Source: Thiotrichaceae bacterium
GTDB taxonomy: Bacteria > Pseudomonadota > Gammaproteobacteria > Thiotrichales > Thiotrichaceae
Length of the DNA stretch: 37,729 bases
Assembly: GCA_015490895.1 (NCBI GenBank)
Contig: WFWY01000083.1
Span: forward strand, 1 to 37,729
Direction of reading: 5' to 3'
Numbering within the stretch: position 1 is the first letter of the stretch; each line of letters opens with the position of its first letter. The translations under genes were made by a program, and so were the position numbers. The notes under the pieces were generated by a model that worked only from the letters and a program-made list of their open reading frames with translations, searched no databases and had not been told where the DNA came from. Below, in pieces: positions 2,544-24,130 of this stretch.

Positions 2544-2639
2544 TACCTGCAAACTATAAAGTGTTATTATCAAATACCCACTGCACCCGTTATGACACAA
2601 GGGGTGAGTAAAACTACATCACACAGCAAAGGAACCACC

Positions 2640-5009
2640 ATGGTCGAAATCTATGAAAAACTGGGTCTCTTTTACATAGGACAGGATGTCGATAAAAACA
2701 CCCTGCAAACGACCGATGCCCTGACTCTGCTAAAAAACAAAAGCTTCACCACACACGCTGCCATTATTGGCATGACCGGAAGTGGTAAAACCGGGTTGGG
2801 CATTGGTCTAATCGAAGAGGCTGCGATTGATAATATCCCCTCGATTATTATTGATCCCAAAGGTGACATGGGCAACTTGTGCCTGACTGATCCAACCTTT
2901 TCGGCTAAACACTTCGAGCCCTGGGTTGCAGATGAAGCACGCACCAAAGAACAGGATATACGTGAATACGCAGCCAAAACAGCCGCCATGTGGAAATCGG
3001 GTATTGAATCCCATTATCAGGATAGTGCCCGCGTCGAGAAATTTGCGCGGGTGGAAAAAACCATCTATACGCCTGGCAGTAGCGCAGGTGTTAGCATCAA
3101 TATCCTGAGCTCACTGGACACACCTCCTGCTGAAATACTCAACGATACGGATACCTTTTCATCCTATATCCAAAGTACAGTCAGTAGCTTGCTGGCACTA
3201 ATTGGGATTGAAGCTGACCCGGTGGAATCCCGAGAGTACATTCTGCTGGCACAAATAATCACTCATGCCTGGCTCTCCGCAGAAAACCTCAACCTGGAAG
3301 ATCTTATCGGTCGCATTATCAGCCCGCCCTTCAAGAAAATCGGTGTGCTCCCACTGGAAGGTTTTTATCCACAAGCAGATCGCTTCAAGTTAGCTACCCG
3401 ATTCAATGCCCTTATAGCTTCCCCCACTTTTGCCGCCTGGCTTAGCGGTGAAAATCTGGATATCCAGCGCCTGTTGTACGATAACGATGGCAAAGCCAGA
3501 ATCGCCATTTTCTCCATTTCACATTTAAGTGATGATGAGCGTATGTTTTTTGTCACGCTGCTGCTCAACAAATATATCGCCTGGATGCGTCGCCAGAGCG
3601 GCACTTCCGCACTAAAAACTGTGCTCTATATGGATGAAATCTATGGTTTCTTCCCACCTACAAAAAACCCACCCAGCAAAGAACCCATGCTACTGATGCT
3701 CAAGCAGGCACGCGCCTTTGGGGTTGGTATTATACTCAGCACCCAGAACCCGGTAGATCTGGACTATAAAGGCTTATCCAACATCGGCACCTGGTTTATT
3801 GGACGCCTACAAACAACACAGGATATTGACCGGGTGATCGACGGACTCGGTGGCAAGGTGGATTCAGACTTTGACAAAAAAGAAATTAAAAACCTCCTTG
3901 CCAACCTGAAAAAACGTACCTTTTTCCTGAAAAGTGCTCACCTTGACACGATTCGCCTGTTTGGAACACGTTGGGTTCTCAGCTATTTAAAAGGCCCCTT
4001 AAAACGTGACGAAATCAGCCTGCTCATGGCTCATAAAAAACAACAGCTGGATAATAACGATGACAAAGATACCACACCGGATGAGAACAGCGCCTCACTA
4101 GCAACAGAAGGCTATGAAACCTATTCCGGGCTGGACGCCAACACCCCACAACGCTTTATGCCGGACACCTCAGGCAAGCATCTTTACAAACCCAGTTTGA
4201 TGGCACAAAGCACCCTGCACTTCTTCAACCAGACTCGTGGTATCAATGAAGAGGAAACCCAGTGCTTATCGCTTGAACTGACTGCAAACACACCACAACT
4301 GGACTGGGAACAGGCACAAACGGCGGACGAGGATATCCCCGGCAATGACTGCTTTAATCAACTTCCGGCACAAGCACCCGCAGAAGCCCGTTACGCTGCA
4401 TGTCCCGACTTTATCAAGACAGATAAAAAACTGACCGCAGCCATCAAAAGTCTCAAGAACTGGCTTTATCACGAACACCGGCTGGAATTATTCCGCTGCA
4501 AAAACCCCAGGCTAGAATCCAGACCTTACGAATCCCTGGCTGATTTCAAGGTTCGACTCAGTGATCTTCTCAATGACAAAAAAGAACTCGCCATTGAAAA
4601 GTTGCAGGAGCGCTACGGAAAAAAAGAGGCTGTATTACTTGCCCGCCTGTCACGCGCAGAGGAGCGGATTGAAAAAGAGCGCTCTGACACAACTGGCTCC
4701 ATGTTGCAAGCCGGAGTAGCGGTACTCGGTGCACTATTTGGCCGTTCTTCCTCTGCCAAAGTCGGTCGGGCCATTAGTCGCGGTAGCCGGGTCTTCAAGG
4801 AACGGGGTGATGTAAGCCGGGCGCAGGAAAGAGCCAATGAAGTCAGGGAAGCCATTGAACAGCTAACCTATGAGCTGGAGGATAAAATAGATGAGATGTC
4901 CGAAAAATATGATGTAGATCAAGTTGTTATCGAAGAGTTCTCTATCAGGTTGAGAAGAACAGATATTGAAGTGAAAAATATAGCCATTGTCTGGAAACCA
5001 GCACCGTAA
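2640..5009 (+). CDS. HerA/DUF853-like P-loop ATPase with coiled-coil C terminus
   Basis: A P-loop ATPase of the FtsK-HerA superfamily; the cellular role is unknown. The ATG at 2640 is preferred over the in-frame ATG at 2592 because AAAGGA lies a few bases before it; the product is then 789 residues. Walker A is GMTGSGKT at 44-51 and a DPKGD motif follows at 72-76. Walker B, with YMDEIYGFFPP, is near residue 330, and a sensor-like LSTQNPVDLD segment follows near 365-375. From about 640 onward the chain is rich in Lys, Glu and Arg and likely coiled coil, apart from a Gly/Ala-rich patch near 690-705. Unlike HerA in DNA-end resection it has no NurA nuclease neighbour. Confidence 0.8.
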   Translation: MVEIYEKLGLFYIGQDVDKNTLQTTDALTLLKNKSFTTHAAIIGMTGSGKTGLGIGLIEEAAIDNIPSIIIDPKGDMGNLCLTDPTFSAKHFEPWVADEARTKEQDIREYAAKTAAMWKSGIESHYQDSARVEKFARVEKTIYTPGSSAGVSINILSSLDTPPAEILNDTDTFSSYIQSTVSSLLALIGIEADPVESREYILLAQIITHAWLSAENLNLEDLIGRIISPPFKKIGVLPLEGFYPQADRFKLATRFNALIASPTFAAWLSGENLDIQRLLYDNDGKARIAIFSISHLSDDERMFFVTLLLNKYIAWMRRQSGTSALKTVLYMDEIYGFFPPTKNPPSKEPMLLMLKQARAFGVGIILSTQNPVDLDYKGLSNIGTWFIGRLQTTQDIDRVIDGLGGKVDSDFDKKEIKNLLANLKKRTFFLKSAHLDTIRLFGTRWVLSYLKGPLKRDEISLLMAHKKQQLDNNDDKDTTPDENSASLATEGYETYSGLDANTPQRFMPDTSGKHLYKPSLMAQSTLHFFNQTRGINEEETQCLSLELTANTPQLDWEQAQTADEDIPGNDCFNQLPAQAPAEARYAACPDFIKTDKKLTAAIKSLKNWLYHEHRLELFRCKNPRLESRPYESLADFKVRLSDLLNDKKELAIEKLQERYGKKEAVLLARLSRAEERIEKERSDTTGSMLQAGVAVLGALFGRSSSAKVGRAISRGSRVFKERGDVSRAQERANEVREAIEQLTYELEDKIDEMSEKYDVDQVVIEEFSIRLRRTDIEVKNIAIVWKPAP

Positions 5010-6793: not shown

Positions 6794-7549
6794 TCACTCC
6801 AGTACAAGACGTGCATTTAGAGACTGTACCGGGCGGTTATTCTCATGCTTCAGTGCTACTTGCAAAGCATTGACCTGAGCTTCGGAAACAGTCATCGGTG
6901 ATTGCATAATGACCCAGCGTACACCTTCACTACACGGAGGAGTCGTTAATGAGCCGTTAAAACGATAATAATTGGAGAAGGAGGACTCCGACTCAATGCT
7001 CTTCAAGGCTCCTGATGGCAAACGTACCGAGTCTCCAGCTTCTTTTGGCATATTTTGCCATAACGCTGTCAAGGTGGCATCTGCCTTGCCGGGAACAAAC
7101 ATCATACCCAGTACTGCCAGCTCACCCTCATCATTGGCATGCACAAAATGCGCCTCAATCGGAAAATGTTTGCCATTAACGGTATTTTCACTGGGGGTAT
7201 GGAAGTGAAACTGCTTCAACTCAAATTCCTGACCATCCAGCTGCATCACACCGCCGCTACGCATATCAACCTGGATACTATGCCCCGTATTCCTGATTCG
7301 GTCAGCAACCAGCATGCTGTAGTTCAGTTTGATAGGCTCCTGGTCAAAGTCGGCCGTCTGCTGGCTATTGATATTAATGGGAGACTGGTTCTTGCCCATA
7401 CGACACATCACATTGTCGGGTGACAGTTCTCCCCAGTACGCTGGCCCGGTTTTACCTTCATAACTCCACTCTTTTTGTGAAGCCTGGAGTGAATTAAGGG
7501 AAAGCAGCCCCAGTAGCAGGCTGACTGTTGTGACGGATAGTTTTATCAT
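6794..7549 (-). CDS. Periplasmic alpha-class carbonic anhydrase
   Basis: Interconverts CO2 and bicarbonate in the periplasm. The start at 7549 gives 251 residues beginning with a signal peptide (about 1-23, cleavage near LQAS); the longer in-frame start adds ten residues that would displace it. The zinc ligands are H115 and H117 in FHFHTPSE, and H134 in EAHFVH. A C49-to-C(TTPPCSEG) pair probably forms the disulfide common to bacterial alpha enzymes, and NQSPINI near 54-60 is conserved. It is a single gene but lies in the same window as a DAB operon, so a part in inorganic-carbon uptake is plausible. Confidence 0.93.
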   Translation of the reverse strand: MIKLSVTTVSLLLGLLSLNSLQASQKEWSYEGKTGPAYWGELSPDNVMCRMGKNQSPININSQQTADFDQEPIKLNYSMLVADRIRNTGHSIQVDMRSGGVMQLDGQEFELKQFHFHTPSENTVNGKHFPIEAHFVHANDEGELAVLGMMFVPGKADATLTALWQNMPKEAGDSVRLPSGALKSIESESSFSNYYRFNGSLTTPPCSEGVRWVIMQSPMTVSEAQVNALQVALKHENNRPVQSLNARLVLE

Positions 7550-7776
7550 GCTTGACTCATCATAGGGTTTAAAAAGCACACAGGTGACATGCGCTGAAGA
7601 CTGTGCGATCAGGTCACGCCATGTTGTGAGTGGCTATGGTAAAGACGTTTTACCTGACTGTCCAGTACACGGGTCACATTATATCGGCGAGTTCAGCCTT
7701 TCTGTGGCGCTTCGCATCAAGGCGTAATGTGCATCCCTGATAAGGTTACAACGCAGAGACAGGGCACCACAACAAC
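7550..7776. other. Upstream region of the carbonic anhydrase gene
   Basis: About 230 bases without a gene. It should contain the carbonic anhydrase promoter; a TATGAT on the minus strand lies very near the start codon, but no matching -35 was found. No repeat of the MITE family was seen here. Confidence 0.4.
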
Positions 7777-7893: not shown

Positions 7894-10800
7894 TTATGCC
7901 AGTCTGTTACAAATTAAATCCACCTGTTCATACAGGGCTTTGAGCCGGGTCACCGCTGCCTGTCGTCTCGGGCTCCAGGTTTTTGACAAATAGACAATGA
8001 GAAAATGAATCCGCCGTAGTGCCCGTGCCTGGTTTTTTTCCGAAGCCGGATCTAGCAAGCGCACATAGGCTCGCCGCAGGTCAGATAGTGCAAGCCGTGA
8101 TGGTTGCCGCTGAATATTTAACAGCTTTAGCAACAGTCTGGTACGCAAAATAGCCTCCCGGGTAGAAAACATAGCCCGACTATCCAATGTCAAGTTCGTT
8201 GCTTCAAGCTGCGCCTTGAGTACCTGTAGCTGCTGCCGGTGCTGGCGATTTTTTTTACCCTTGTCACGACTGTTTATACCTAGCGAAACACTTACCGCTT
8301 CCAGCAATAACGCAGCATCATAACGCCCAGAACGCTCAAACACCTGCTGGCTATTATCCATAAAGCGCTGATATGCCAGGCGCATGAGCTGTCGCCCTGT
8401 GGGCAGATCGTATTCCAGTTTCACCTGTCCATAGTGCCGGTAGACATGCCCCTGCAATGTCAGCCGTTCCCTATTCTCACCCACCTCCAGTAACCGTTTG
8501 ATTTCTTTATCAGCGGTCTTGATATAATACTCATCAAACTCCGGCATGGTCGTAAACTTGCTATAAAACAGAAACATTTCTTCAGATAACCGGATTAATA
8601 ACCGCACCCGGTTCTCCAGCGCTTGCAAGGAAACATGAGCGTTATCCGCAACCATTGCCTGCTGATAACATTCCAGCGCTTTGACATCTTCGTTAACCCT
8701 GGCAAACACATTGCCCAGAGCCTCCAGCACCGCAGCTTCCCGCTTCCAGCTGTCCGGCAGTCCAGCCATGTGGAAACGTGCCTCCTGAGCGACTTTTCGG
8801 TTTTGCGCTACATTAAGCTCCGGCCTCGCACAGAAATTCTCTGCCCAGACAATCAGCTCTCTGGGGCTATGAAAAACATTCGTTTCTCGCGCTTGCCGGG
8901 TACTCTCGCTGGAACGAACCTGAGTCAGACGAAACTGGGGGTCACCATAAGCCTGGTAAGCTCCCCAGGTATTACTGCGCGGAAACTTGTTATAAACCGC
9001 CACCCGCGCCTGCTTACAAGCCTCACCAAAAGTATTGCCCTTGAGGATCATCTGCTCGTAAAACTGACCTGCAAACTCCAGTGCTGCATCATCATCCACT
9101 TCCCAGCCCGCAGCAATTACACACTTGGCACCGGCTTCGATGAAAGCAGTTCCCAGGCTGGCTGCCAATGAGGCGCGAGACTCGATTAAAAACAGGTTCT
9201 CTGAGGGGGGGTCTCCACCCTCATCAAACCGGGCTGTACGCATTATTCTGCCAAGATAACAGGCATTAATAAAAATCAGTTCAGGAATAAACTCCAGCTG
9301 TTGTACCTCATGATCTGTCAGAAATATTCCTTCACCCAGAACCATTCCTGCCAGTCCTTTCTTGTAGGATCGACCCGCATAAGATTCACCCGGTGGCACA
9401 TAGACACCATGCCCCGCCAAATGCAGTACCTGCACCTGAGCATTCATGACTTGCGAGACAATATCCACGCCACGGGAACGAATCATTACATGGGCTGCCG
9501 CGTCTAAAGTTGTCCCCCCGACCAGTTGCCTGAGCATTTCAGCTTCCTGCTGGGCACCTGGCAGTTCCGGCAATGAGGAAAGTGGATCCCCGACAATCAT
9601 AATGCGTTGGTTGATAATGGCAGGGCGACTCTTGTCAACCGTCGTATGTAACTTGCGAACTAGCCCTGTTTCAATGGCAAAGGGAGCCCCTCCTGTGTCA
9701 CCCTCATCACTGGGAACCAGCATTTCCCAGGGATATTGGGCAGCCTGTTTGTTAAGCAACAGAACAACCCCGTTATCATCCAGTACCTGGCCTTTAAACT
9801 CGTTTGGGATTAATAGTTTAAATAATGTTTGACTAAACTGGCGATTAAATACGGTCTGCCGTGTCGACTGTTTCACCAGCGTATCAATCAGTTGTGCCTG
9901 GGTATCCAGAATCGTGGTGCTCAGGCCTGCGCGTGCTGTCAGGGGTGAGAACGTCAGATTACCTTTCTTGTTGGCAATGACCTGAATATGTTGCCACCAG
10001 TCATCCTGTCCTTGCGAAGCGGCACGTTTGCGTAGTCCGCAAAGGGGAACAATCAACGGTTCAACACTGACATTCACATCCAGACGGGATTGTATTTTCT
10101 CCAGCGAACGCGCGGCACTGATCGCCACATCTTCATATAACTCCACAATATCCAGACGCATAATGGGTTCACAACGCATATCCACCAATACCTGATTTGC
10201 CTCTGACAGGGCACGCAACAAGGCCATCACACTATCTTCTATGGTGACCCCTCCTGAACCGGTTCCAATTAGCAGGCTGGCCAGAGCAATCGGCGGCATC
10301 TGGCCTGCCGCAAAACCACAATTCTGCCGCAGCTCACGCTGGTGCAAGCCATAGCTGATAAAGCCATTTTTCAAGGTCGATCGTAACTTGCGTACAGTGA
10401 GTGAGCCAATCGTCCCCAGCCCTACAACAACTGCGCCAAAAGCCGTTGTTTCCAGCCCTCGTTGTGTCACTACCTGCACACTCTCCAGCTCACCGGGGTA
10501 CAGGTTTTTGCGATACAGATCCGACAAACCACCTTCCAGTGCTTCATCAATGACAGCCTCGGCTGACTTGATACCATCCTGTAAATAATGGCCTACCAAA
10601 ACAGGCTGGGTGATATAGCGCAAATCACCACTCACAATACGGATTTGTGCAACTGGCAATTTCCTTGTCTGTTGAGGTGTGATTGCAACGCTTCGTGACC
10701 GTAGGACAACATTTTCAATATCGCTCTGATCCGGATACAGCAGAGAATAGCCCCCCGACTTGAGTTGCCGGTGTTTTAATGAGCGAGTGCTACGCGACAA

Positions 10801-13437
10801 AGGCCGGGTATGGCTAATCTGTTTGGTATCTCCTTTGATGACAAGTTCTGCCAATGCAGGAAACAAACCCGGCATAGCCAGCAAGTTGCCATGAATCCCC
10901 CCCATGTACCATATTTTTTCTTCGGGTATCCAGTCAGGAATTTCACTCCACCGGGCACTGCCATCACCTTCTGCTGTGGTTGAAAACACACCCGTGCTTT
11001 GCATGTCAATCGGTGTTCTCGGATAACTCCCGGCAAGATAATGTATCCGGTTGGTATATGCTGGCTGATGGTTGGGCTTGCTGCTCAGTTGCTTGTGTAA
11101 CGACCTGTTAGCCTGTTCCAGAGTGCTGGGCAGCATATCGACAAGACCGGGGAAACTGCTAAACAACTGCTGTAATTCCTCCACAGTGTTTTTGCGGTCT
11201 ATCAATGTCAGATAAGGTAATAACGGCGCAACGCCCTTGAGAAGTTCCAGTGCATAAAAAGTGCCGTTAAATGGCATTCCCGCCAAAAATAGCTGCATAT
11301 CGTGCTGCTGTATGAGCAGCTTTCTCAATGTTGCTGACTGGTGCAACGCACGTAATACAATATAGCCCCCGGTCGAGTGAGCAACGATTCGAACTGGCAG
11401 TGACGAATAGATATCGTAGCTGAGCGCCTGCTGTACAAATTTGGTGAACTCCCGGGCATTCTGTTCCGTTGATAGCCGCCAGTCATAGGGGAAGCTGACA
11501 ATCGTTTGTGCATGTCCTCTTTCCAGATAATCTGCAAACAGCTGATAACGACTTTCAATCCAGCCATCTGTCTGTGCCCGTGGTGTCTGTTGCAAACTAA
11601 GTTGCTCCAGCTTGCCGGCTGCAATACTTTCTGTTTTGAGCCAGACACGCTGCTGCTTTGCCAGTAAATGTGTGGCTGCGAAAGCAGGAACAATAATCGT
11701 GACACCCCGAGACTCTGGTCGTCGTCCGGAACGTAGCGGAACCAGGCTACCCAGCAGACCGGAGCGCGGCGAGTATGTCTTACCAGTAGCATTTTTCGGT
11801 AATGGTTTGAGGCCGTTATACAGCCCTTTCAGGCTGGTTTCATTCTTGAAATAGGAGAAATGATTCACATCCTTGCTTTTATCCAGCAGCAAGAGCGGTG
11901 TCTGACTACGGCGCAAGCCGCCTCGCATTGCGCCGGTTTCTACAACAAAGTCATTGCGTTCCCAGTAATAAGAATTACTTAACGCGACCAGTAAGGTTTG
12001 ACGGGAGAAACCATCAGCCTGTGCATTCCCTGCAATCACCGTCAAACGGGATTCAACTTTGCTGGCATGATCATTTAACAGACGAGTCAGTCCCCTGTTG
12101 GGTATCATACTCTCCAGCCCCGGTAACGCTTCCATCTGGAAGCGCTCTTTGGCGGCAATGATTGCAAAACTTTTGAGTGTATCGACCGTACGTGAAAGTT
12201 TCGGGTTAGTCAGGCGGGCAAACCACTGTACCGCTGTTGCCATCACACTCAAATAAAGATCCAGGCGACCACTGGCCAGCGTTGTGCCCCGCATCGGGCA
12301 CGCGACACGTACAAAACGCTCAACGACTGGTGCTTTTTCGACTAGCTGCCTGTTCAGTTGCCGTAATTCCTGTACGACAGCTTTTGGCACCTCATCATCA
12401 TAAGCGGAGGAAAAACGCTCAATATCCTGTTTTGAAATCGGCTGAACGGGGTTTCCCTGGTCATTTCCGGATTGCTCAACCATTGACAGACACAGCAATT
12501 CACCAACTAGCCCACCTCTGGAGTGAGAGAGCACATGCAACTGCTGACCTTTAGGCAATCGGCTCAAAATATCCCGTGCATTCTGAACAGGACTGCGGGT
12601 CAGGGTGTCATGCTCAAAAGCATACACCCGTCCAAAATAATAGCTATCGATAAAATCAAACCAGGCAGAACGCTGATCACGATTTTCGGCCTGGGAAGTA
12701 GCGGATGCTTCACTCCACCATAAATCACCAAAACTGCCTTCAGTGGAGGATGCTGTGCCATGAATCAGCAATAACAGCGGCTGCTCACTGGGGGGGAGTG
12801 TCTGTTGCGAATCAATGGCTTGCCACTTTTTCCCTGTGTGATCCCAGCGTAACATGCCCTCTTTTTCAGTTTGCAGACGTGTCACAAAATGATTGGCAAT
12901 AGCCTGTGTATCAACAGGCTTGCCATTCTGTTTATCGGCATTCAACCAGTCGATCTCTGGCAAACTGATCGTTTTAATAATATCCGTTAAACCACGGGAT
13001 AACGCAGGGTCTGCCACACCACTTATGGGAGTCGCAGCTGTTAACGTCAATCTCGAAGAAGATGATTCCGTAGCCGCCCTGGAGGCAGCGGGCTGCACCA
13101 GCGCCTGTAACTCATCCAGCCTGAGGTACAGTACACCGCCATCGACCAGCTCCACTTCGATAATTTGTCCAGCATCACAATCCAGCACTATCGGACTTGT
13201 ACTCGCCCCCCTAGAGCGGCGAAAGTCATAGGTTCTGGTCGCTGTTATGGTAAATAGCCCATCCGCCTGCTGACTGATAGCTGTGTATTTTTCTACGCCG
13301 GGTTCCGCTTCAAGTTTTCTACCACTACGTGTAACCGTAGCGAGAGGTGCTGCATACAGTGTGAGTTGAATAGTAGCCACTGATTCCTCGACTAGCTTGT
13401 AGGGACTGTACTTACCGCTCTTGCAAGACGGAAGCAT
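7894..13437 (-). CDS. Giant protein: two alpha/beta-hydrolase domains, CHAT protease domain and helical tail
   Basis: 1,847 residues. The start at 13437 has GAGG 5 bases upstream. Residues 1-130 look beta-rich and have no recognised family. Hydrolase 1 (about 215-500) shows LLLIHG (oxyanion strand) and a nucleophile elbow SHSRGG with S306. Hydrolase 2 (about 575-870) shows a PYDWR motif and the elbow AHSTGG with S688, as in LCAT-like lipases. At about 930-1130 is a region with VVVGLGTIGSLT and LLIGTGSGG strings that faintly recalls the N-terminal domain of M17 aminopeptidases. The CHAT domain (about 1180-1505) has the caspase-type pair H1343 in HLAGHG and C1393 in FINACYLGR. The tail is helical with at least one TPR-like pair near 1566-1600. 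No signal peptide or membrane segment, so cytoplasmic. Function unknown; conflict, lipid or protease signalling are inferences. Confidence 0.85.
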   Translation of the reverse strand: MLPSCKSGKYSPYKLVEESVATIQLTLYAAPLATVTRSGRKLEAEPGVEKYTAISQQADGLFTITATRTYDFRRSRGASTSPIVLDCDAGQIIEVELVDGGVLYLRLDELQALVQPAASRAATESSSSRLTLTAATPISGVADPALSRGLTDIIKTISLPEIDWLNADKQNGKPVDTQAIANHFVTRLQTEKEGMLRWDHTGKKWQAIDSQQTLPPSEQPLLLLIHGTASSTEGSFGDLWWSEASATSQAENRDQRSAWFDFIDSYYFGRVYAFEHDTLTRSPVQNARDILSRLPKGQQLHVLSHSRGGLVGELLCLSMVEQSGNDQGNPVQPISKQDIERFSSAYDDEVPKAVVQELRQLNRQLVEKAPVVERFVRVACPMRGTTLASGRLDLYLSVMATAVQWFARLTNPKLSRTVDTLKSFAIIAAKERFQMEALPGLESMIPNRGLTRLLNDHASKVESRLTVIAGNAQADGFSRQTLLVALSNSYYWERNDFVVETGAMRGGLRRSQTPLLLLDKSKDVNHFSYFKNETSLKGLYNGLKPLPKNATGKTYSPRSGLLGSLVPLRSGRRPESRGVTIIVPAFAATHLLAKQQRVWLKTESIAAGKLEQLSLQQTPRAQTDGWIESRYQLFADYLERGHAQTIVSFPYDWRLSTEQNAREFTKFVQQALSYDIYSSLPVRIVAHSTGGYIVLRALHQSATLRKLLIQQHDMQLFLAGMPFNGTFYALELLKGVAPLLPYLTLIDRKNTVEELQQLFSSFPGLVDMLPSTLEQANRSLHKQLSSKPNHQPAYTNRIHYLAGSYPRTPIDMQSTGVFSTTAEGDGSARWSEIPDWIPEEKIWYMGGIHGNLLAMPGLFPALAELVIKGDTKQISHTRPLSRSTRSLKHRQLKSGGYSLLYPDQSDIENVVLRSRSVAITPQQTRKLPVAQIRIVSGDLRYITQPVLVGHYLQDGIKSAEAVIDEALEGGLSDLYRKNLYPGELESVQVVTQRGLETTAFGAVVVGLGTIGSLTVRKLRSTLKNGFISYGLHQRELRQNCGFAAGQMPPIALASLLIGTGSGGVTIEDSVMALLRALSEANQVLVDMRCEPIMRLDIVELYEDVAISAARSLEKIQSRLDVNVSVEPLIVPLCGLRKRAASQGQDDWWQHIQVIANKKGNLTFSPLTARAGLSTTILDTQAQLIDTLVKQSTRQTVFNRQFSQTLFKLLIPNEFKGQVLDDNGVVLLLNKQAAQYPWEMLVPSDEGDTGGAPFAIETGLVRKLHTTVDKSRPAIINQRIMIVGDPLSSLPELPGAQQEAEMLRQLVGGTTLDAAAHVMIRSRGVDIVSQVMNAQVQVLHLAGHGVYVPPGESYAGRSYKKGLAGMVLGEGIFLTDHEVQQLEFIPELIFINACYLGRIMRTARFDEGGDPPSENLFLIESRASLAASLGTAFIEAGAKCVIAAGWEVDDDAALEFAGQFYEQMILKGNTFGEACKQARVAVYNKFPRSNTWGAYQAYGDPQFRLTQVRSSESTRQARETNVFHSPRELIVWAENFCARPELNVAQNRKVAQEARFHMAGLPDSWKREAAVLEALGNVFARVNEDVKALECYQQAMVADNAHVSLQALENRVRLLIRLSEEMFLFYSKFTTMPEFDEYYIKTADKEIKRLLEVGENRERLTLQGHVYRHYGQVKLEYDLPTGRQLMRLAYQRFMDNSQQVFERSGRYDAALLLEAVSVSLGINSRDKGKKNRQHRQQLQVLKAQLEATNLTLDSRAMFSTREAILRTRLLLKLLNIQRQPSRLALSDLRRAYVRLLDPASEKNQARALRRIHFLIVYLSKTWSPRRQAAVTRLKALYEQVDLICNRLA

Positions 13438-14720: not shown

Positions 14721-16211
14721 TTAGCGTCCTGCTTGCAACCCGGAAAGCCACGCATTCAAGGTTACTTCCATCACATCAAGTACCAGAGCAGGAAATAAGC
14801 CACCAATAAATACAAGCAGCAGAAAAACAACCATTATCAGGCTTTCCCGATACTGCAAGTCTTTTGCTTCTGCCACTACCTGATGGGTAACCGGCCCCAA
14901 AAAACTCTGTCGGTAAATAGTAAATAGATAAACCGCACCCAACACCATGCCCAGCAAGGCAGCCAGACCTGCCCCGGTGTGGCTAGTCAATACGCTGATC
15001 AACATCATGAATTCAGCCGGAAAACCACTGGTACCTGGAATGCCAATACTGGCAATACCCAGCAGAAAGAAAAAGGCGGCCAACAAAGGCATGGTGCTGA
15101 CCACGCCGCCCAGACTAATTACTTCTGTCGAGTGAGTACGGGCATAGAGGAAACCGGCCAGCAGAAACAGACCACCTGATATAAGTGTAAAATTCAGCAA
15201 CTGGAAGACTGCCCCCTGGACTCCCTGTATATCAAAAGAAGCGATACTCAATACCACCAGACCAACATGACTCATGCTGGAATAGGCCAGCATACTGCGT
15301 AAATTGCTTTGTTGCATTGCCATGAGTGCGCCATAGAGGATACCGATCAGCCCTAACCCGGCCAGTAACCAGTGAAATTGCAGGGCAGCATCTGGAGCCA
15401 GTGGAATAGTGAAACGAATCAAGCCATAGGCACCTAGCTTGAGTCCGGTCATGATCACGCCTATAGCCACCGGCCCTTCCAGGGTCAGTACCGGTAGCCA
15501 GGTATGAAACGGGAACAACGGAATTTTGAAGGTAAAACCCACAAACAGTAAGAAAAAGACCAGTACCTGCTGTGACGTCGGCAGGGGATGTTCGCGCAGG
15601 AGGGCATAATCAAAGACCAAAGGAGTTTCACTAGCCGTAACATCTCCCAGAGCCAACAATACAAATCCAAACAGTAAAGGTATACCACCGGCCATCATAA
15701 GCAGGATATATTTCGTTGCTGCATAACGGCGGTTAGGTCCCTTGCCCCACAAGGCAATCAGGAAATACGCCGGGATCAGGGTTAGCTCCCAGAACAGCAT
15801 AAACAGAATTGTATCCGTTGCCGTAAAAATACCCAGTGTGGTTGCCTGTAAAAGTAACAACAAGGAGTAATACACGCGCGGCATAATATGTATCCGTTTC
15901 CATGATGCCAGAATCATGGTCACAAACATTAAAGTTGTCAGGGGTAAAAATAGTATGGAAAGTCCATCAACACCAACCCGGTAATGAATATTCAGTGTCG
16001 GTATCCAGGAGTATGTTTCAACAAACTGAAAAGCGGCACTTTGCTCATCAAAACCCGTCAACATCAGCACCGACAACAGTAAGCCGGCAACCGAAGTTAG
16101 CAGGGCAATACGTCTTGCCATTACCGTTGCCCTGAATATCCAGATCGCCGCTACCCCCACTACCATGAACAGAAGTAACAGGCTAATCAGAGGTAAAGAT
16201 GCCAGGTTCAT
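14721..16211 (-). CDS. NuoM/MrpD-type ion-translocating membrane subunit, last gene of the DAB operon
   Basis: A 496-residue polytopic protein of the proton-conducting antiporter family (NuoM type), with about 13-14 membrane segments. Family landmarks are GVDGLSILF, the charged residue in FWELTLIP, the FPFHTWLPVLTLEGPVAIGV loop and lysine in GLKLGAYGLIRF. Its ATG at 16211 overlaps the stop of the gene before it by one base (TAATG), so translation is coupled. It is not part of a complex I operon: no nuoA-K or NADH module is nearby. It probably helps drive DabA/DabB transport or works as an ion channel beside it. Confidence 0.88.
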   Translation of the reverse strand: MNLASLPLISLLLLFMVVGVAAIWIFRATVMARRIALLTSVAGLLLSVLMLTGFDEQSAAFQFVETYSWIPTLNIHYRVGVDGLSILFLPLTTLMFVTMILASWKRIHIMPRVYYSLLLLLQATTLGIFTATDTILFMLFWELTLIPAYFLIALWGKGPNRRYAATKYILLMMAGGIPLLFGFVLLALGDVTASETPLVFDYALLREHPLPTSQQVLVFFLLFVGFTFKIPLFPFHTWLPVLTLEGPVAIGVIMTGLKLGAYGLIRFTIPLAPDAALQFHWLLAGLGLIGILYGALMAMQQSNLRSMLAYSSMSHVGLVVLSIASFDIQGVQGAVFQLLNFTLISGGLFLLAGFLYARTHSTEVISLGGVVSTMPLLAAFFFLLGIASIGIPGTSGFPAEFMMLISVLTSHTGAGLAALLGMVLGAVYLFTIYRQSFLGPVTHQVVAEAKDLQYRESLIMVVFLLLVFIGGLFPALVLDVMEVTLNAWLSGLQAGR

Positions 16212-17746
16212 TATTCAACACCTTCCACATGATACAGGCTATACAGGTTCTCTAGCGGGGCATCAATGAGATGAAGCCAGGGCTCAGAATGAAAACCGGC
16301 AGTGACCAAAACAGCCAGTAACAGGAGGGCGACAGCCCGCTCGCTCCAGGTGGTTTTCTCAAGATAAGAGGTGTTAACGGGAGCCTCTCTCGGCGTTAAA
16401 AATGCCCGCTGAAATGACCACAGTAAAAAGCCCGCTGCAATCACATTGCCCAGTGCAGCTACCACTGTAATCAGTGCTCCAAAACGCTCCATAGCCGCTT
16501 CCAATACCAGGTGTGCAGCATCAAAGCCTGGTGTGCCTGGCATACCAACAATGGCCAGCCCTGCAATCAAAAAGGTCACACCAATCAGAGGGATGGTATC
16601 AAACAACCCTCCCAGACGACTTAGTAACAGGCTCTTGCTGCGACGAAAAACAAAACCCGACATAAACACCAGGCCAACCATGGCCAGCCCGAAGTTTGCA
16701 GAAAGCAGAACGCTTCCCTGAAATGCAGTATGTCCCAGACTAAATAGCCCAATGATCAAAATACTGGTATGTGAAATGACTGCAAATGCCAGTAAACGCC
16801 GTAAATTCTTTTGCATAAACGCGAGAAGGGCTGCATAAAACACACCCACCACAGCAAAAGCAATAACATAATTCTGCCATTGCTGAATGGCTTCGGGAGT
16901 CAGCGGCAGTACAAACCGTAACAGCCCAAAGATACCCACCTTGATACCAATCATAACCGCCGGCGCCAGAGCCACGTTGCCATGGGTAGTGAAAACGGGT
17001 AGCCAGCCATGTAACGGAAACAAAGGAATACGAATAGCCAGTCCATAAAACAGCAAGAAGAAAATGACTGTTTGCAGGGGTGCTGGAATAGACAGTTTCA
17101 CCAGGTCAAACAGGTCAAAGCTCCATTTCCCTCCGGGAACGACATCAGAGTAATACCAGCCTAGCGTCATGACGCCTGCGAAAAAGAGCAACAAGGCCAC
17201 CAGCATGAACTGAATGTAACGTGCCCGTGCCAGATCCTTCTCCGGAGAACTTGCCCAGTGCAACAGCAGGTAGGCAACCAGCACCAGCTCAAGCGCTGAA
17301 AATACTACAAACCAGAGCAGGTTCATTGTGGTAAACAAAGTCATAAGAATGGCTTCGATTGCCAGCAATGTCGGCATTAACCTGTATATCTCCTGTATCT
17401 GACGTGCCAGTGAATACAATACCAGCATGATAAAGACAAACGCACTTAGCAAAATAAATAACAGGCTAACACCGTCAACCGCTGCATGATAACCCGGTAA
17501 CAGACCCCAGTACTCGGCATACTGCATCATTGTCGTCTGACGATCAAAACCGTGATACAAAAAAATGCTTAGTATCAGCTCGATACTCACCGCCGCCACC
17601 GTGATCAACTTCACGAACAGTTCCCGACGCTGAAAAGCCAGAACAAGCAGTGCCGCCAGCAAAGGCACTAGCTGTAATACAGACAATACCGGAAAATCAA
17701 GCTGTGTTTGCCACAGGCTCTCTGTTAGCGTGTATTGCGATGTCAT
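16211..17746 (-). CDS. NuoM-like ion-translocating membrane subunit of the DAB operon
   Basis: 511 residues, a second antiporter-type subunit. AVDGVSLLF, the glutamate in SALELVLVAYLLL, FPLHGWLPVFTTHGNVAL and lysine in GIKVGIFGLLRF mark the family, but the HGNVAL loop and the ALEL helix are more divergent than in its two paralogs. Its ATG overlaps the dabB stop by one base (TAATG). It lies between dabB and another NuoM-like gene, so all three are probably made in fixed ratio as one membrane complex. Confidence 0.86.
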   Translation of the reverse strand: MTSQYTLTESLWQTQLDFPVLSVLQLVPLLAALLVLAFQRRELFVKLITVAAVSIELILSIFLYHGFDRQTTMMQYAEYWGLLPGYHAAVDGVSLLFILLSAFVFIMLVLYSLARQIQEIYRLMPTLLAIEAILMTLFTTMNLLWFVVFSALELVLVAYLLLHWASSPEKDLARARYIQFMLVALLLFFAGVMTLGWYYSDVVPGGKWSFDLFDLVKLSIPAPLQTVIFFLLFYGLAIRIPLFPLHGWLPVFTTHGNVALAPAVMIGIKVGIFGLLRFVLPLTPEAIQQWQNYVIAFAVVGVFYAALLAFMQKNLRRLLAFAVISHTSILIIGLFSLGHTAFQGSVLLSANFGLAMVGLVFMSGFVFRRSKSLLLSRLGGLFDTIPLIGVTFLIAGLAIVGMPGTPGFDAAHLVLEAAMERFGALITVVAALGNVIAAGFLLWSFQRAFLTPREAPVNTSYLEKTTWSERAVALLLLAVLVTAGFHSEPWLHLIDAPLENLYSLYHVEGVE

Positions 17747-19287
17747 TAGATAATCACCACAAAGGTGACCGCGACCAGAACCACCAGATAACGTGGCTGA
17801 CTAAGCAGCTTTTCTATCGTCAGCATGTAGCCTCCCAGATGATGCAGCATTTTCAGTAACCCTTCACCACCACCTTGCAAGATCAGACGTTCTTCGAACC
17901 ACTCAAAGGCTGAAGCTACCATTTCCATCAGCTTGCCTGTCAGGCCCCTGCCCTTGCCAATATTTTCTATCCAGCGTTGTTGCTGTACCCCCGGCAAGCC
18001 TGCGGGCTCTGTTGGCAGGCCAATCATGCGGTTTATTACTTTTTCGTCAAAGTCACGGACTTCTTTGGCCAAAGACCGGGTAGGCCGGATCAGGAACCAG
18101 TCTGCAAGATGATCCAGCCAAAAGCGTTGCAGGGCTGCGGTATACAGGAATGTGCGTGACCGTAGCCAGGGCGCGACTTCACGCGCCGGTCGATGCACCA
18201 TAAACATCAGGTCGGGCGAGCTTAGAAATTGCCAGGAACGCCAGATAGCGTGTGCAGTCAGGTGCCAGGCCGCCAGCTCAAACCAGCCCAGGCCGCATTC
18301 AACAAACATGAGTCCTACCTGAGCAGTGGTTGAAAACATCAGCGAACTTTTTACATCCGTTTGCACCAATGCCGATAACCAGCCATAAATCGCTGTGATA
18401 CCACCCACAATGACCAGTATCCACATCACCAGAGGAACCTGCTCAAACAGAAATTGCAGCCGGATTACCAGATAGACACCTGCATGTACCATCAATGAAC
18501 CATAAAAAATTGCACTGGACGGGGTTGGCCCTTCCAGTGCCCGACTGATCCAGCCAGAAAAAGGCAACATTGCTGATTTGGCCAGTGCTGCAACCAGGAA
18601 ACCAGCCAGCATCAGCCCCAGATGCAAGGTACTTTGCTCAGGGCTGTGGTTCATAATATCTACCCAGTCAGCACTCCCGATCACACTAAAACTCACATAC
18701 AGGGCAAATAAAAATCCAGCATCTCCCACACGGTTGGTAATCAATGCGTAATTGGCATTTTTCGTAGCGACCCGGCGATGACTGGAATAGGCAATTAAAA
18801 GGAAAGAGCTAATCCCTGCCAGCTCCCAGCCAACAAAAGCCAGTACACCATTACCTGCCAGCACTATCAGTAACATACCACTGGAAAAAAGGGACAGAAT
18901 TATGAAAAAACGCTGAAAACCTGCTTCACGGTGAAGGTAATTCACCGAAAACCGAATAGTAACCAGTAGCAGAAAACTGGCCAGAGTACCAAATGTCAGC
19001 CCCAGCGTATCAAGGTATAGACCGAAATCGACCTTTATCGCACCGCTATGGAACCACTCACCGATGTGAATAGAACCAGGTGCCCCCTGAAACAGGGCGA
19101 TGGTGTCAACAACCAGTATCAGGATCAATGAAAAAGCGCTGGCACTCACTGCAACAGAAGCAGTGTGTCGCTCACCAGACTCGCCACGATTCATACCACT
19201 TAAGTACCCCAGTGCAATAAAACCTGCTGCAAACAATGGTGCAAGAGGTACCAGCCAAACCAGCTGGATAATGCTCTCCCCTGTCAT
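17746..19287 (-). CDS. dabB: DabB, NuoL-like membrane subunit of the inorganic-carbon transporter
   Basis: 513 residues. Membrane partner of DabA; in characterised DAB complexes it is thought to use a cation gradient to drive one-way CO2 hydration in the cytoplasm. NuoL landmarks are present: E155 in FVGWELAG, the TNRVGDAGFLF loop, K237 in LAKSAMLPFSGW, the GPTPSSAIFYGSLMVHAGVYL segment and DVKSSLMFSTTAQVGLM. The C-terminal part (about 370-513) is hydrophilic and amphipathic, with a final membrane segment. The ATG overlaps the dabA stop (ATGA) and has a strong AGGAGG site 6 bases upstream. Confidence 0.9.
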   Translation of the reverse strand: MTGESIIQLVWLVPLAPLFAAGFIALGYLSGMNRGESGERHTASVAVSASAFSLILILVVDTIALFQGAPGSIHIGEWFHSGAIKVDFGLYLDTLGLTFGTLASFLLLVTIRFSVNYLHREAGFQRFFIILSLFSSGMLLIVLAGNGVLAFVGWELAGISSFLLIAYSSHRRVATKNANYALITNRVGDAGFLFALYVSFSVIGSADWVDIMNHSPEQSTLHLGLMLAGFLVAALAKSAMLPFSGWISRALEGPTPSSAIFYGSLMVHAGVYLVIRLQFLFEQVPLVMWILVIVGGITAIYGWLSALVQTDVKSSLMFSTTAQVGLMFVECGLGWFELAAWHLTAHAIWRSWQFLSSPDLMFMVHRPAREVAPWLRSRTFLYTAALQRFWLDHLADWFLIRPTRSLAKEVRDFDEKVINRMIGLPTEPAGLPGVQQQRWIENIGKGRGLTGKLMEMVASAFEWFEERLILQGGGEGLLKMLHHLGGYMLTIEKLLSQPRYLVVLVAVTFVVII

Positions 19288-22200
19288 ATCGTCCCTCCTG
19301 ATGGATGACCAGACCCGGAAGGCGCAATCAAAACAGGTGACAGCGGTTCCATATGACCCGTATACCAGTCAGAGGATTGCTGGACGGTTTGCAGAGCCGG
19401 CAACTGTTCATTTGACCAGGGAATAAAACCACGTTGCGGGTCGAAAAAATGAATAGCTCCACTCTCTGGATCAACGGACGATAACAGTATCCACTCATTG
19501 CCAATCAGCTCCTGCAATGCCGGGGCACGTTGGTAAATTGCCGTGAGGATATCCGTGCTGGCTTCTACCATCACCTGCAAGCGCATGGCTTCATGGATTT
19601 CAACCATTTGCTGGGGCAAGCCGGTTCTCAGATCAGAACCAGCACCTTCCATCACGCCAAAAAAACCGGTGACATTATGTGTCACCTTGCTACCGGCACC
19701 AAAGCGATCATTGCTGACTTTGGAGAAATAGTATTCAAGGCTAATACCGGCTCCCACTGGCCCTGCCGACAATAACAGGGCTTCCAGTAACGAGCCTTGA
19801 TCATCGTCCACAGTCGCATCATAGGAAATCAAAAACAGGCGTCGATCAAAAAACACTCCCTGGCTCACTGCCCGACGTCCGATAATAGCGCAAGCATTCG
19901 TGGCATGCCCCAGCTCCGGGCGTGCCTGGGAGAAATCAAGTGAACGCTCAATGCTATGCTTAAGGGCTTGCTGTTTGTCTGGCATGGATGGCGCAGAAGC
20001 AAATTTGCGACAACGCTCATGGGCAGAGAACGCTGTTGCCTGCAAGACTTCCTGTTGCAAAGTTACAAAATCATGCTGCAATGCATCCGGTATCAAGGCG
20101 GTATCATACCAGTCAACCGTCTCATTACAGGTATTATGCATGGCACCAACAAACCAGCAATGATCAGGAATCGACAGACCTTCCTCGCAGAGCTGTTTTC
20201 TTACCTCGGAATGATTGGCCATTGATGCCAGAATACGTGCATTGGGGCCACTGTATTTGCCACTACAGGCACCGCAACCATAAGCCGAACGATGCGGGTT
20301 ATTTTCATTTGTCGAACCATGCCCCATGATGACAACAAAACGTCCGAAACCTTCTGTCAGGCCATTGGTACGCAAAAAGCCACCCACACGTGCTACCTGC
20401 TCTTCCAGGCTATATCCCATGGAAGGGTTATCCGGGGTCGCATCAGGTTTGGTCTTTTCCACACAGGTGTGAATCTCGGTAGTAACCGGGATCGCTATAC
20501 GTTGGCGCAAGCTTTGTAGTAATTGTCCAGTTCTTAGTGGTGCGAACACCTTTCCGGCCAGCGTGAGCAGAGTCAACGGCGCACTGGCCATAATCAAGGC
20601 AGAGGAGCTGAGCAGGTTGCGACGCACTTCATGGTTCAACGTGTTTTCCAATCGCACACGTTGCTGATGGCGCTGCTTATGTCTGGCCAGCAGTGACTGA
20701 TCCTGTGGTGCAACGGTTTCATGAATTTCATGCACTGGATCTATGGTTACCGGGGTCAGTTTGATGCACTGATCATGATCCAGCCCCTGCCAGCGATGGG
20801 GGACGTTAAAATGCGCCGCAGCCCCCAGTGTTTCAATCGACGGGTTAATGGCTTCCAGGTGTCGCCGTATACCTTCTTCACGGTCATCCATGCAAAAAAT
20901 AACCTGGGCACTGGGTGAGGTGCCGCTGGTAGAAGTACGGCTGTGCCAGTGGCCGCGGCCCTTGTTCTGTTTAACCGCGTGGAAAAACATTTCCCGGTAA
21001 TGATGCTCATAAGCCTGTAACCAAAGGTAACCGGTTTTATGCTTGTGCATCTGATCCAGCGATGCAAAAAAAGTCTCTACCTGCGCCGTTGTCAGAGAGC
21101 GCACAGCCACAGCGGGAATCCCCAGTATCTGCATCAGGCGAAATAACCGCCAGGCATGGTCATGTACGGTGTAGCGACTTTCCTGTCCGGCAAATTCATG
21201 CTGCTGCCAGACCCAGATCATGTCTGCCAGCTTTTGCCAGTTATCGTAATCATCGGCAAAACGACTATCATGACTGGAAAGACGGTATGCCCGGCTAACC
21301 AGAAACTCCGGCAAATGTTCATTGTACAATTGATAACGTACGAACAACTCGGAACGACGACGGTGAAAATACCACTGTATCGAATGTAAACTGGCTTCGA
21401 GGCGCCATAATTGCCGTGTCAGGCGTTGGGCATATAAACGCTCCAGTACCATACGCACAGCCAGATATTCCATCATGTCAACCCGTTGCTGCATGCCTTC
21501 ATAACCCGGGTGCTCATGCAGCCATAGAAACATGCCAGACCAGCCAGGCAACTCCAGTGCCAGGCGTTGCAGATAATCTGCCCAGTGTGATTCATCCAGC
21601 CCCAGATGGTCCAGTTCCCACATAACAACTTCTAGCGGATCATCCGGTAAACTCTCCAGTTCATCCTGCCAGTCAGGAAGCTCTGGGTCAAAACGAACCA
21701 GATCTTCATAGGCACTGGCCTTCCAGCTGGAAAAAAAGCCCTGCTCACGTTGCGGATGGTGCCAGGCTGCTACTCCCTGATCAAGAAAAGCACCAATATG
21801 ACGTAACAGGCCAGGCCGGTAATCTTCCAGAATATCGTGGCCCGTGAGTTTTTTTAACAGGTCTCGCAAGGTCATGTTCCGGCCAACATCCGACCATAAT
21901 TGTTCCCGAATATGGTCGGATGCCTTCCGCATCGCCCCGTGCAAAATAAAATGGTCTGTGGTTTCCTGCTGCTTCCCCGCCGTCAACTTCCTAAGCAGGC
22001 TCTCGGCAAATTCGGGGGACAAATCAGCAACCTCTTCGGGATGGAGCATGTCATGGCTTAATCCCAACCGATCCAGACAGGCCTCCCACAAGCTACTCAC
22101 GGCACTTTCTTCCGATGAGCTTTCAGCCAGCAGAGCCTGACGGCTACGCCGGGGAACATACGGCATGAAGGAAGTCAACCTATCTTTTTCTTCAATCAGC

Positions 22201-22607
22201 CAGCTTAACTTGCTCGCGCTAATGGACTCGTTGCCATACAAAATAGCAGTAAAATAAAGTTGCTCACGTTTGATAAGGCGCTTCCCGACAGTAAGCCAGC
22301 TCTCCTCTGTGGGCAAGGCCTTATCCGCACGAATCACCGCATAGATATCATCTCGGGTAATACGTCCCTCACGGTAGTAGCCGACATATTCATCCTGCCC
22401 CATATAGCCGTAAATGCCGGTTGTTTTATCCGCAACCTGTAATGCTTCGTTAAAATGCAAATGCTGATAACCGTGCAAGGTATTGTGATGCACAAAGTCC
22501 TTGATAGGTGCCTGTCCGGGCAAGACATGCTGCAAATGCGCCACCATCTGTAACAAACGCTGCCGGGTATCCTCCTCCTTTTGTGGCCTATTATGAGCCT
22601 GTGCCAT
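19284..22607 (-). CDS. dabA: DabA (DUF2309/UPF0753), zinc subunit of the inorganic-carbon transporter
   Basis: Cytoplasmic carbonic-anhydrase-like subunit that hydrates CO2 vectorially with DabB. At 1,107 residues it is of the long DUF2309 type. The predicted zinc site is C572 and D574 in IFCMDDREEG, with H763 in GHGSTNENNP and C778 in YGCGACSG. The spacings (2 and 15 residues) match those of the C351, D353, H524 and C539 ligands of Halothiobacillus DabA. R577 in the DDREEG motif is also conserved. The start codon directly follows the stop of the upstream NuoM-like gene (TAAATG). The N-terminal VHHNTL motif (39-44) is characteristic of the family. Confidence 0.94.
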   Translation of the reverse strand: MAQAHNRPQKEEDTRQRLLQMVAHLQHVLPGQAPIKDFVHHNTLHGYQHLHFNEALQVADKTTGIYGYMGQDEYVGYYREGRITRDDIYAVIRADKALPTEESWLTVGKRLIKREQLYFTAILYGNESISASKLSWLIEEKDRLTSFMPYVPRRSRQALLAESSSEESAVSSLWEACLDRLGLSHDMLHPEEVADLSPEFAESLLRKLTAGKQQETTDHFILHGAMRKASDHIREQLWSDVGRNMTLRDLLKKLTGHDILEDYRPGLLRHIGAFLDQGVAAWHHPQREQGFFSSWKASAYEDLVRFDPELPDWQDELESLPDDPLEVVMWELDHLGLDESHWADYLQRLALELPGWSGMFLWLHEHPGYEGMQQRVDMMEYLAVRMVLERLYAQRLTRQLWRLEASLHSIQWYFHRRRSELFVRYQLYNEHLPEFLVSRAYRLSSHDSRFADDYDNWQKLADMIWVWQQHEFAGQESRYTVHDHAWRLFRLMQILGIPAVAVRSLTTAQVETFFASLDQMHKHKTGYLWLQAYEHHYREMFFHAVKQNKGRGHWHSRTSTSGTSPSAQVIFCMDDREEGIRRHLEAINPSIETLGAAAHFNVPHRWQGLDHDQCIKLTPVTIDPVHEIHETVAPQDQSLLARHKQRHQQRVRLENTLNHEVRRNLLSSSALIMASAPLTLLTLAGKVFAPLRTGQLLQSLRQRIAIPVTTEIHTCVEKTKPDATPDNPSMGYSLEEQVARVGGFLRTNGLTEGFGRFVVIMGHGSTNENNPHRSAYGCGACSGKYSGPNARILASMANHSEVRKQLCEEGLSIPDHCWFVGAMHNTCNETVDWYDTALIPDALQHDFVTLQQEVLQATAFSAHERCRKFASAPSMPDKQQALKHSIERSLDFSQARPELGHATNACAIIGRRAVSQGVFFDRRLFLISYDATVDDDQGSLLEALLLSAGPVGAGISLEYYFSKVSNDRFGAGSKVTHNVTGFFGVMEGAGSDLRTGLPQQMVEIHEAMRLQVMVEASTDILTAIYQRAPALQELIGNEWILLSSVDPESGAIHFFDPQRGFIPWSNEQLPALQTVQQSSDWYTGHMEPLSPVLIAPSGSGHPSGGTI

Positions 22608-24077
22608 TTAAAACAACCTCACTAACTGTTTGATGCTTTGCTCAGAGAGCTGTATCCAGCCTGCCGGCATCACACCCAGTATAATAATCGCACCCATTAG
22701 AACAGAGGCTGCCAGTATTCCCGTAGGCTGCATATCTTCTACTTCCCGCATACTACTGCGTACCGGGCCTGTAAACAGGCGACCCACAGTGCGGATTGCA
22801 TAAATGGCGGAAATAACCACACCCAGGCTAACCAGGAATACCCACCACCCCCAGGCCTGATAGCCACCAATCAAGGCATGTAATTCAGCAATAAAGCCGA
22901 AAGTTCCCGGCATACTGACAGCCGCGATAAAGGCAAGCACCAGGAAAAAGGCAAAACGGGGAGTAATACGGGTGAGTGAACTGTATTGGGAAATATCACG
23001 GGTATGGGTACGCTCATACAACATTCCGATCAGCATGAACGTAACACCAGCCACCAGCCCATGTGCGGTCATTTGTGCAACCGCACCGGTCATGCCCGTG
23101 AAATTCAATGTCGAAATACCCAATAACACCACACCCATATGGCTAACTGAAGAATAAGCAATCATACGTTTCAAATCACGCTGCCGCCATGCCAGCAAGC
23201 CCCCATACACAATACTGAACAATGCCAGTACTACCAGTAAAACCTGCAACGCCTGTGTCGCATCTGGCAACATGCCAGTAGCACGAATGATTCCGTAAGC
23301 ACCCATTTTCAGCAAAATACCGGACAATAAAATACTGACCGGGCCAGGCGCCTCTACATGCGCCAGGGGTAACCAGCCATGCAGGGGAAATATCGGCATC
23401 TTTACACCAAAGCCAACCAGCAGTCCCAATAAGATCAATGTCTGCTGCTGCACCGGGAACCCCTGTGCAGCAGCCATCATTGGTGCCATGGAAAAAGAAC
23501 GCTCGGGCACTGCATCAAACAAGACCAGCAAGCTCACCAGTATAAAGACAGAACCTCCCATGGTATACAATACAAAGTTCAACGCTGCTGTTTGTCGGTT
23601 TTCACCTCCCCAGCGATCAATCAGAAAAAACAGCGGAATCAGGGTCATCTCCCAAAAGACATAAAAGAGCGCCCAGTCCTGTGCCAGAAACACACCCAGA
23701 ATAGCCGTTTCCAGCAACAGTATTAAGATGTAATAGCCTTTTATATGCTGCCGGATACTGGTCGACACCAACAAGGCAATCAGACACAGTAACGCCGTTA
23801 GTATCAGCATTGTTATGGAAAAGCCATCAACACCTACCGCATATGCCGTTCCAAGGCGTTGATTCCAGGAAATATATTCCGCCATTTGAATACCAGCATG
23901 GCTGCTATCGTAACGCATCAGTACTTGTATGGATAACAGCAGGGTTAGCATGCTGCCTGATAGTGCTACCGCACGAACCCATCCGGTACGAGCACCAGGC
24001 AGCAGCACAATAAAAGCAGCGCTCAATACCGGCAACAGCAATAAAAAAGACAGAATATGCGAGTGGAAAAAGGACAT
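22608..24077 (-). CDS. NuoM-like ion-translocating subunit, first gene of the DAB operon
   Basis: 489 residues when begun at the ATG at 24077; a TTG at 24086 is also in frame, and neither has a clear Shine-Dalgarno. Landmarks are GVDGFSITML, the glutamate in FWEMTLIPLFFLID, FPLHGWLPLAHVEAPGPVSILLSG, lysine in LLKMGAYGIIR, and RDLKRMIAYSSVSHMG. It is the most NuoM-like of the three paralogs. Being first, upstream of dabA, suggests it belongs to the transporter and not to complex I. Confidence 0.88.
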   Translation of the reverse strand: MSFFHSHILSFLLLLPVLSAAFIVLLPGARTGWVRAVALSGSMLTLLLSIQVLMRYDSSHAGIQMAEYISWNQRLGTAYAVGVDGFSITMLILTALLCLIALLVSTSIRQHIKGYYILILLLETAILGVFLAQDWALFYVFWEMTLIPLFFLIDRWGGENRQTAALNFVLYTMGGSVFILVSLLVLFDAVPERSFSMAPMMAAAQGFPVQQQTLILLGLLVGFGVKMPIFPLHGWLPLAHVEAPGPVSILLSGILLKMGAYGIIRATGMLPDATQALQVLLVVLALFSIVYGGLLAWRQRDLKRMIAYSSVSHMGVVLLGISTLNFTGMTGAVAQMTAHGLVAGVTFMLIGMLYERTHTRDISQYSSLTRITPRFAFFLVLAFIAAVSMPGTFGFIAELHALIGGYQAWGWWVFLVSLGVVISAIYAIRTVGRLFTGPVRSSMREVEDMQPTGILAASVLMGAIIILGVMPAGWIQLSEQSIKQLVRLF

Positions 24078-24130
24078 ACAGGCCAATACAACCGACTATC
24101 AAAAATAATAAAACGCGCAAGTATAACGGA

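Follow-up and report, generated by a model that had tools for sequence, protein, structure and literature searches.

A widespread bacterial protein family combines two lipase-type domains, a macro-fold domain, a predicted CHAT protease and a putative sensor tail in one chain

What might a bacterium do with a single protein that appears to carry both lipase-like and caspase-like active sites? The question is raised by an open reading frame at 7894-13437 on the minus strand of the window, the whole 37,729-nt stretch of DNA analyzed here. A sequence-only reading had proposed that this frame encodes 1,847 residues with two serine-hydrolase elbows (SHSRGG at S306, AHSTGG at S688), a CHAT His/Cys pair (H1343, C1393) and a helical tail. 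We confirmed the frame, which runs from an ATG at 13437 to a stop, placed it on the minus strand, and found the four residues exactly where they had been located, with H1343 in HLAGHG and C1393 in NAC. The plus strand of the same interval is packed with stops. No strong ribosome site is obvious before the ATG, the first ~16 residues are of low confidence, and promoter scan scores were no better than those of shuffled sequence. Rfam, tRNA and tandem-repeat features were absent across the window. The source genome (2.78 Mb, 95% complete) encodes a single copy of the protein.

Pfam identifies, from N to C terminus, DUF7379 (residues 222-323, E 1.7e-29), LCAT (644-808, 9e-11), CHAT (1201-1499, 4.9e-25) and a weak TPR match. 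We combined these assignments with two AlphaFold models (residues 905-1847, pLDDT 84; residues 1-1185, pLDDT 79) and with residue conservation in 82 full-length homologues. The protein has a conserved five-module architecture with intact catalytic sets, preceded by a beta-rich and poorly conserved N-terminal region (residues 1-214; 12796-13437, minus strand, as are all features of the gene given below). Pfam, conserved residues and folds thus agree with the proposal that two alpha/beta hydrolases and a CHAT domain share one chain.

Hydrolase 1 (residues 215-545; 11803-12795) is a predicted DUF7379 alpha/beta hydrolase. Its DUF7379 match reaches 103.6 bits against a Pfam cut-off of 33, the order of strands and helices in its model fits this fold, a lipase I.5 profile matches weakly (E 0.007), and its triad (S306, 12520-12522; D496, 11950-11952; H526, 11860-11862) is invariant in the 82 homologues. 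An oxyanion-type HG lies at residues 226-227. The fold list for the 1-1185 model was filled by hydrolase 2 and held no separate entry for hydrolase 1, and no paper in the literature searched names DUF7379. Hydrolase 2 (residues 576-871; 10825-11712) belongs by sequence and modeled fold to the LCAT/group XV phospholipase A2 family. It scores 42 bits against PF02450 (LCAT; cut-off 21), its fold matches lysosomal (group XV) phospholipase A2 (Z 23.1 over 271 residues) and LCAT (Z ~20), and a profile search agrees (E 8e-9). Its Ser-Asp-His set is complete (S688, 11374-11376; D825, 10963-10965; H849, 10891-10893), and lipase activity is predicted. The two elbows had been described as duplicated hydrolases, but simple duplication can be rejected: the families differ (DUF7379 versus LCAT/group XV), and their overlap is limited to the common superfamily elbow region (profile-profile E 6e-7 over 80 columns).

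Between hydrolase 2 and CHAT lies a domain that the earlier inventory, otherwise accurate for the hydrolases, CHAT and the helical tail, had overlooked. Residues ~926-1122 (10072-10662) adopt a macro fold in the model, matching macroH2A (Z 16.6 over 168 residues) and the leucyl-aminopeptidase N domain (Z 16.6); by sequence the nearest family is Peptidase_M17_N (14 of 19 members). The aminopeptidase N domain is not known to bind ADP-ribose. Two Gly-rich loops, VGLGxxGxL and LIGTGxGG, may occupy the phosphate-binding positions of macro domains.

The CHAT module (residues 1145-1505; 8923-10005) is a predicted caspase-like protease. It matches PF12770 at 89 bits (cut-off 24), and its modeled fold resembles separase (Z 22.4), Craspase TPR-CHAT (Z ~20) and SAVED-CHAT (Z 19.4 at 2.5 Å), with gingipains also among the closest structures. 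The His/Cys motif of SAVED-CHAT aligns by profile with H1343 (9409-9411) and C1393 (9259-9261). The sequence-only reading had staked its elbows and its CHAT pair on a fold search: hydrolase 2 and CHAT both lie in the expected folds, whereas hydrolase 1 is placed by its Pfam match, the order of its modeled elements and the weak profile hit. The remaining module, a helical tail (residues 1524-1847; 7897-8868), matches the central regulatory region of ASK1 (Z 19.8 over 267 residues), above the ~13 that helical repeats can reach by chance. TPR-S (PF20308) matches 17 of 19 family tails at E<=1 (best 8.7e-15), and in nine related genomes the frames that encode the family score above its cut-off; the tail of the window protein itself falls short of it. 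The family tail is therefore probably a TPR-S sensor-type module with an ASK1-like fold, in line with the sensor role suggested for it earlier.

The architecture had been called unusual; it proved instead to be widespread. An alignment-based scan of a public genome collection identified at least 556 related contigs in nine phyla (Pseudomonadota, Thermodesulfobacteriota, Nitrospirota, Acidobacteriota, Bacteroidota, Verrucomicrobiota, Myxococcota, Chloroflexota and Rhodothermota). We kept the best 80 of these contigs, each with the whole gene or nearly so; the scan patterns were derived from CHAT and top-scoring matches were retained, so this sample is tilted toward complete proteins. Unlike the alignment-based scan, a single-protein query against the contigs of the collection gave zero matches, and the viral contigs scanned contained no relatives. 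Relatives are mostly full length (about 1750-2150 aa) and ~30-45% identical. Counting some partial matches, they occur in 22 of 57 related genomes and 14 of 369 sampled genomes of the class. Others reside on plasmids of Azotobacter, Ensifer and Paracoccus, with one plasmid copy beside type I restriction genes. The distribution is thus patchy, cross-phylum and partly plasmid-borne, as with accessory conflict genes. On two Paracoccus plasmids a protein of ~1080-1095 aa is encoded upstream in the same direction (L064, 8342-11587; L065, 8169-11453); in L064 the genes overlap by 4 bases and the upstream protein has no Pfam match.

Conservation of the catalytic residues is uneven. H1343 and C1393, like the hydrolase 1 triad and D825 and H849 of hydrolase 2, are invariant in the 82 homologues; S688 is kept in 79 and replaced by G, C or A in the other three, with D825 and H849 staying regardless. 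Of the proteins in a second set, from plasmids and more closely related genomes, 6 of 25 no longer have S688, and the CHAT His and Cys are present in 26 of 26. Since S688 is lost in both sets and the CHAT pair never is, constraint is strictest on CHAT and loosest on the hydrolase 2 nucleophile. Shortened relatives also occur: L050 lacks hydrolase 1, and a 942-aa Rhizobium plasmid protein (L066, 11965-14793), which lies amid three large TIR-domain genes, lacks the hydrolases.

Gene neighborhoods associate the family as a whole with TIR and caspase genes, consistent with the conflict-system setting suggested from the window sequence, as does the TIR fusion described below. Among 65 adjacent same-strand genes at 71 loci, 14 encode TIR, 12 caspase C14, 7 M15 peptidase and 2 clostripain; TIR, C14 and M15 were each found in 0 of 65 control genes located 4-6 positions away at the same loci. 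Fisher p values for adjacent versus control genes are 6e-5 for TIR, 3e-4 for C14 and 0.013 for M15, with related loci pooled so that independence is overstated. On the gene tree, TIR neighbors require ~9 changes, counted from a TIR list drawn up partly by eye from N-termini, and therefore do not trace to one lineage; caspase neighbors require 8. In many relatives the gene directly upstream encodes caspase C14, and at two loci (L111 and L146) the family gene stands between an upstream caspase and a downstream TIR gene. The TIR partner of L097 includes a SIR2-like region. In a Geobacter/deltaproteobacterial clade, TIR is fused to the C terminus (L069, 9914-16375; L077, 9992-16369; L076, 3-6164), where it shares 64-69% identity with the free-standing TIR neighbor of L122 and L129. 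At seven related loci the CHAT gene shares its last 4 bases with an M15-type peptidase gene (for example, L100, 14774-15439), which is often followed by an unknown protein of ~517 aa.

The copy in the window is solitary: neither adjoining gene encodes a TIR or caspase protein. A carbonic anhydrase gene lies 315 bp downstream (6794-7579) and a divergent response regulator 421 bp upstream. Further away, 14721-24086 is a bicarbonate uptake operon encoding DabA and four antiporter-like membrane subunits, and with the carbonic anhydrase it makes the genome look like that of a carbon-fixing gammaproteobacterium; in sister genomes the carbonic anhydrase and DabA are on separate contigs. The gene at 2592-5009 encodes a HerA-like ATPase that defense-associated HerA models match only distantly. 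The 95% complete source assembly has no match to TIR_2, so for this copy a TIR step lacks support, and its one partial C14 match is away from the lipase-CHAT gene. No PADLOC family model matches the lipase-CHAT protein. Neither the window nor the neighbor tallies support a phage origin or a CRISPR link.

What, then, does the protein do? We consider it about an even call that the gene encodes a single-chain conflict executor, acting in immunity or cell death, of this widespread family. Every step beyond the architecture and gene partners is inferred. The protein would be cytoplasmic, with the macro-fold and TPR-S modules holding CHAT idle until one or both perceive a danger signal. Published TIR-derived messengers switch on effectors of macro-domain or caspase-like type (PMC12847820, PMC11204291), which, with the TIR link, suggests that the signal in many relatives may be a product that the partner TIR makes from NAD; in the source genome, which has no TIR gene, it would have to come from elsewhere. 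Activated CHAT might cleave in cis, cut a partner caspase, or both. The two lipase-type domains, released or switched on, would then attack membrane lipids and so stop the infected or damaged cell. We hold only tentatively the fullest form of this proposal, a one-chain inflammasome-like system in which a TIR or stress signal triggers CHAT self-cleavage, two phospholipase-type effectors are freed, and death follows without a pore former.

The same evidence can be arranged around the protease. CHAT could be the main effector, cleaving other proteins (in a cascade, for instance, a partner metacaspase), with the hydrolases serving as sensor, targeting or thioesterase modules; the upstream caspases, the unvarying His/Cys pair, the persistence of CHAT where one or both hydrolases are missing and the repeated loss of S688 all favor this arrangement. 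Yet the hydrolase 1 triad never varies, D825 and H849 outlast S688, and the phospholipase A2 fold of hydrolase 2 extends over 271 aligned residues; we regard this protease-centered reading as doubtful. The setting of the window copy, alone among carbonic anhydrase and Dab bicarbonate uptake genes, would instead suit a non-immune enzyme complex for lipid remodeling or for redox stress signaling like that of ASK1, an animal stress sensor (PMC8705584), in which the protease acts as a turnover switch. This seems unlikely for a family with an excess of TIR and caspase genes among its neighbors and a patchy spread over phyla and plasmids. Hydrolase 2 also matches Tle4, a secreted phospholipase effector (4r1d, Z 20.9), as might be expected if the protein were secreted as a toxin or acted against competitors instead of serving in intracellular defense. 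Pfam, however, finds no secretion-type modules, the N terminus has no signal peptide apparent by eye, and TPR-S and CHAT modules are present in a family with TIR and caspase partners; we consider a toxin very improbable.

If the single-chain executor reading is correct, protease-triggered death in bacteria needs no separate gasdermin or other separate substrates, and one gene supplies a sensor, a caspase-like protease and two membrane-lipid enzymes that travel together across many phyla. The family would also place an ASK1-type regulatory fold beside caspases and TIR proteins, a juxtaposition relevant to the origin of animal death signaling. Each module is known singly. A 2020 paper by Burroughs and Aravind, cited in PMC8195603, reportedly deals with TPR-S/ASK-signalosome-related conflict systems; neither PADLOC nor the literature searched contains a chain that joins two lipase-type domains to a macro fold, CHAT and TPR-S, and prior description, above all in that paper, is possible.

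Several known systems share parts of this design. With the TPR-S/ASK-signalosome-related systems, the lipase-CHAT family appears to have in common the TPR-S sensor tail and its ASK1-like fold. Hydrolase 2 is like group XV phospholipase A2 and LCAT in fold and Ser-Asp-His order, but sits within a five-module bacterial protein. SAVED-CHAT (PDB 8tl0) and Craspase TPR-CHAT/Csx29 share the CHAT fold (Z 19-20) and likewise couple a sensor module to it; the lipase-CHAT protein, by contrast, has no CRISPR or SAVED part, includes lipases and a macro-fold domain in the chain itself, and carries its TPRs, which are TPR-S/ASK1-like, at the C terminus. A further parallel is Thoeris, in which TIR is paired with a caspase-like protease (type IV) or a TM-macro effector (type II) (PMC12847820, PMC11204291). 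Relatives share with Thoeris a partner or fused TIR, a caspase-like protease and a macro-fold module; an adjoining or fused TIR (ThsB) is absent for the window copy and present in other members. They depart from it in that CHAT replaces the type IV effector, the macro fold is nearer to M17_N, and lipase-type domains are present.
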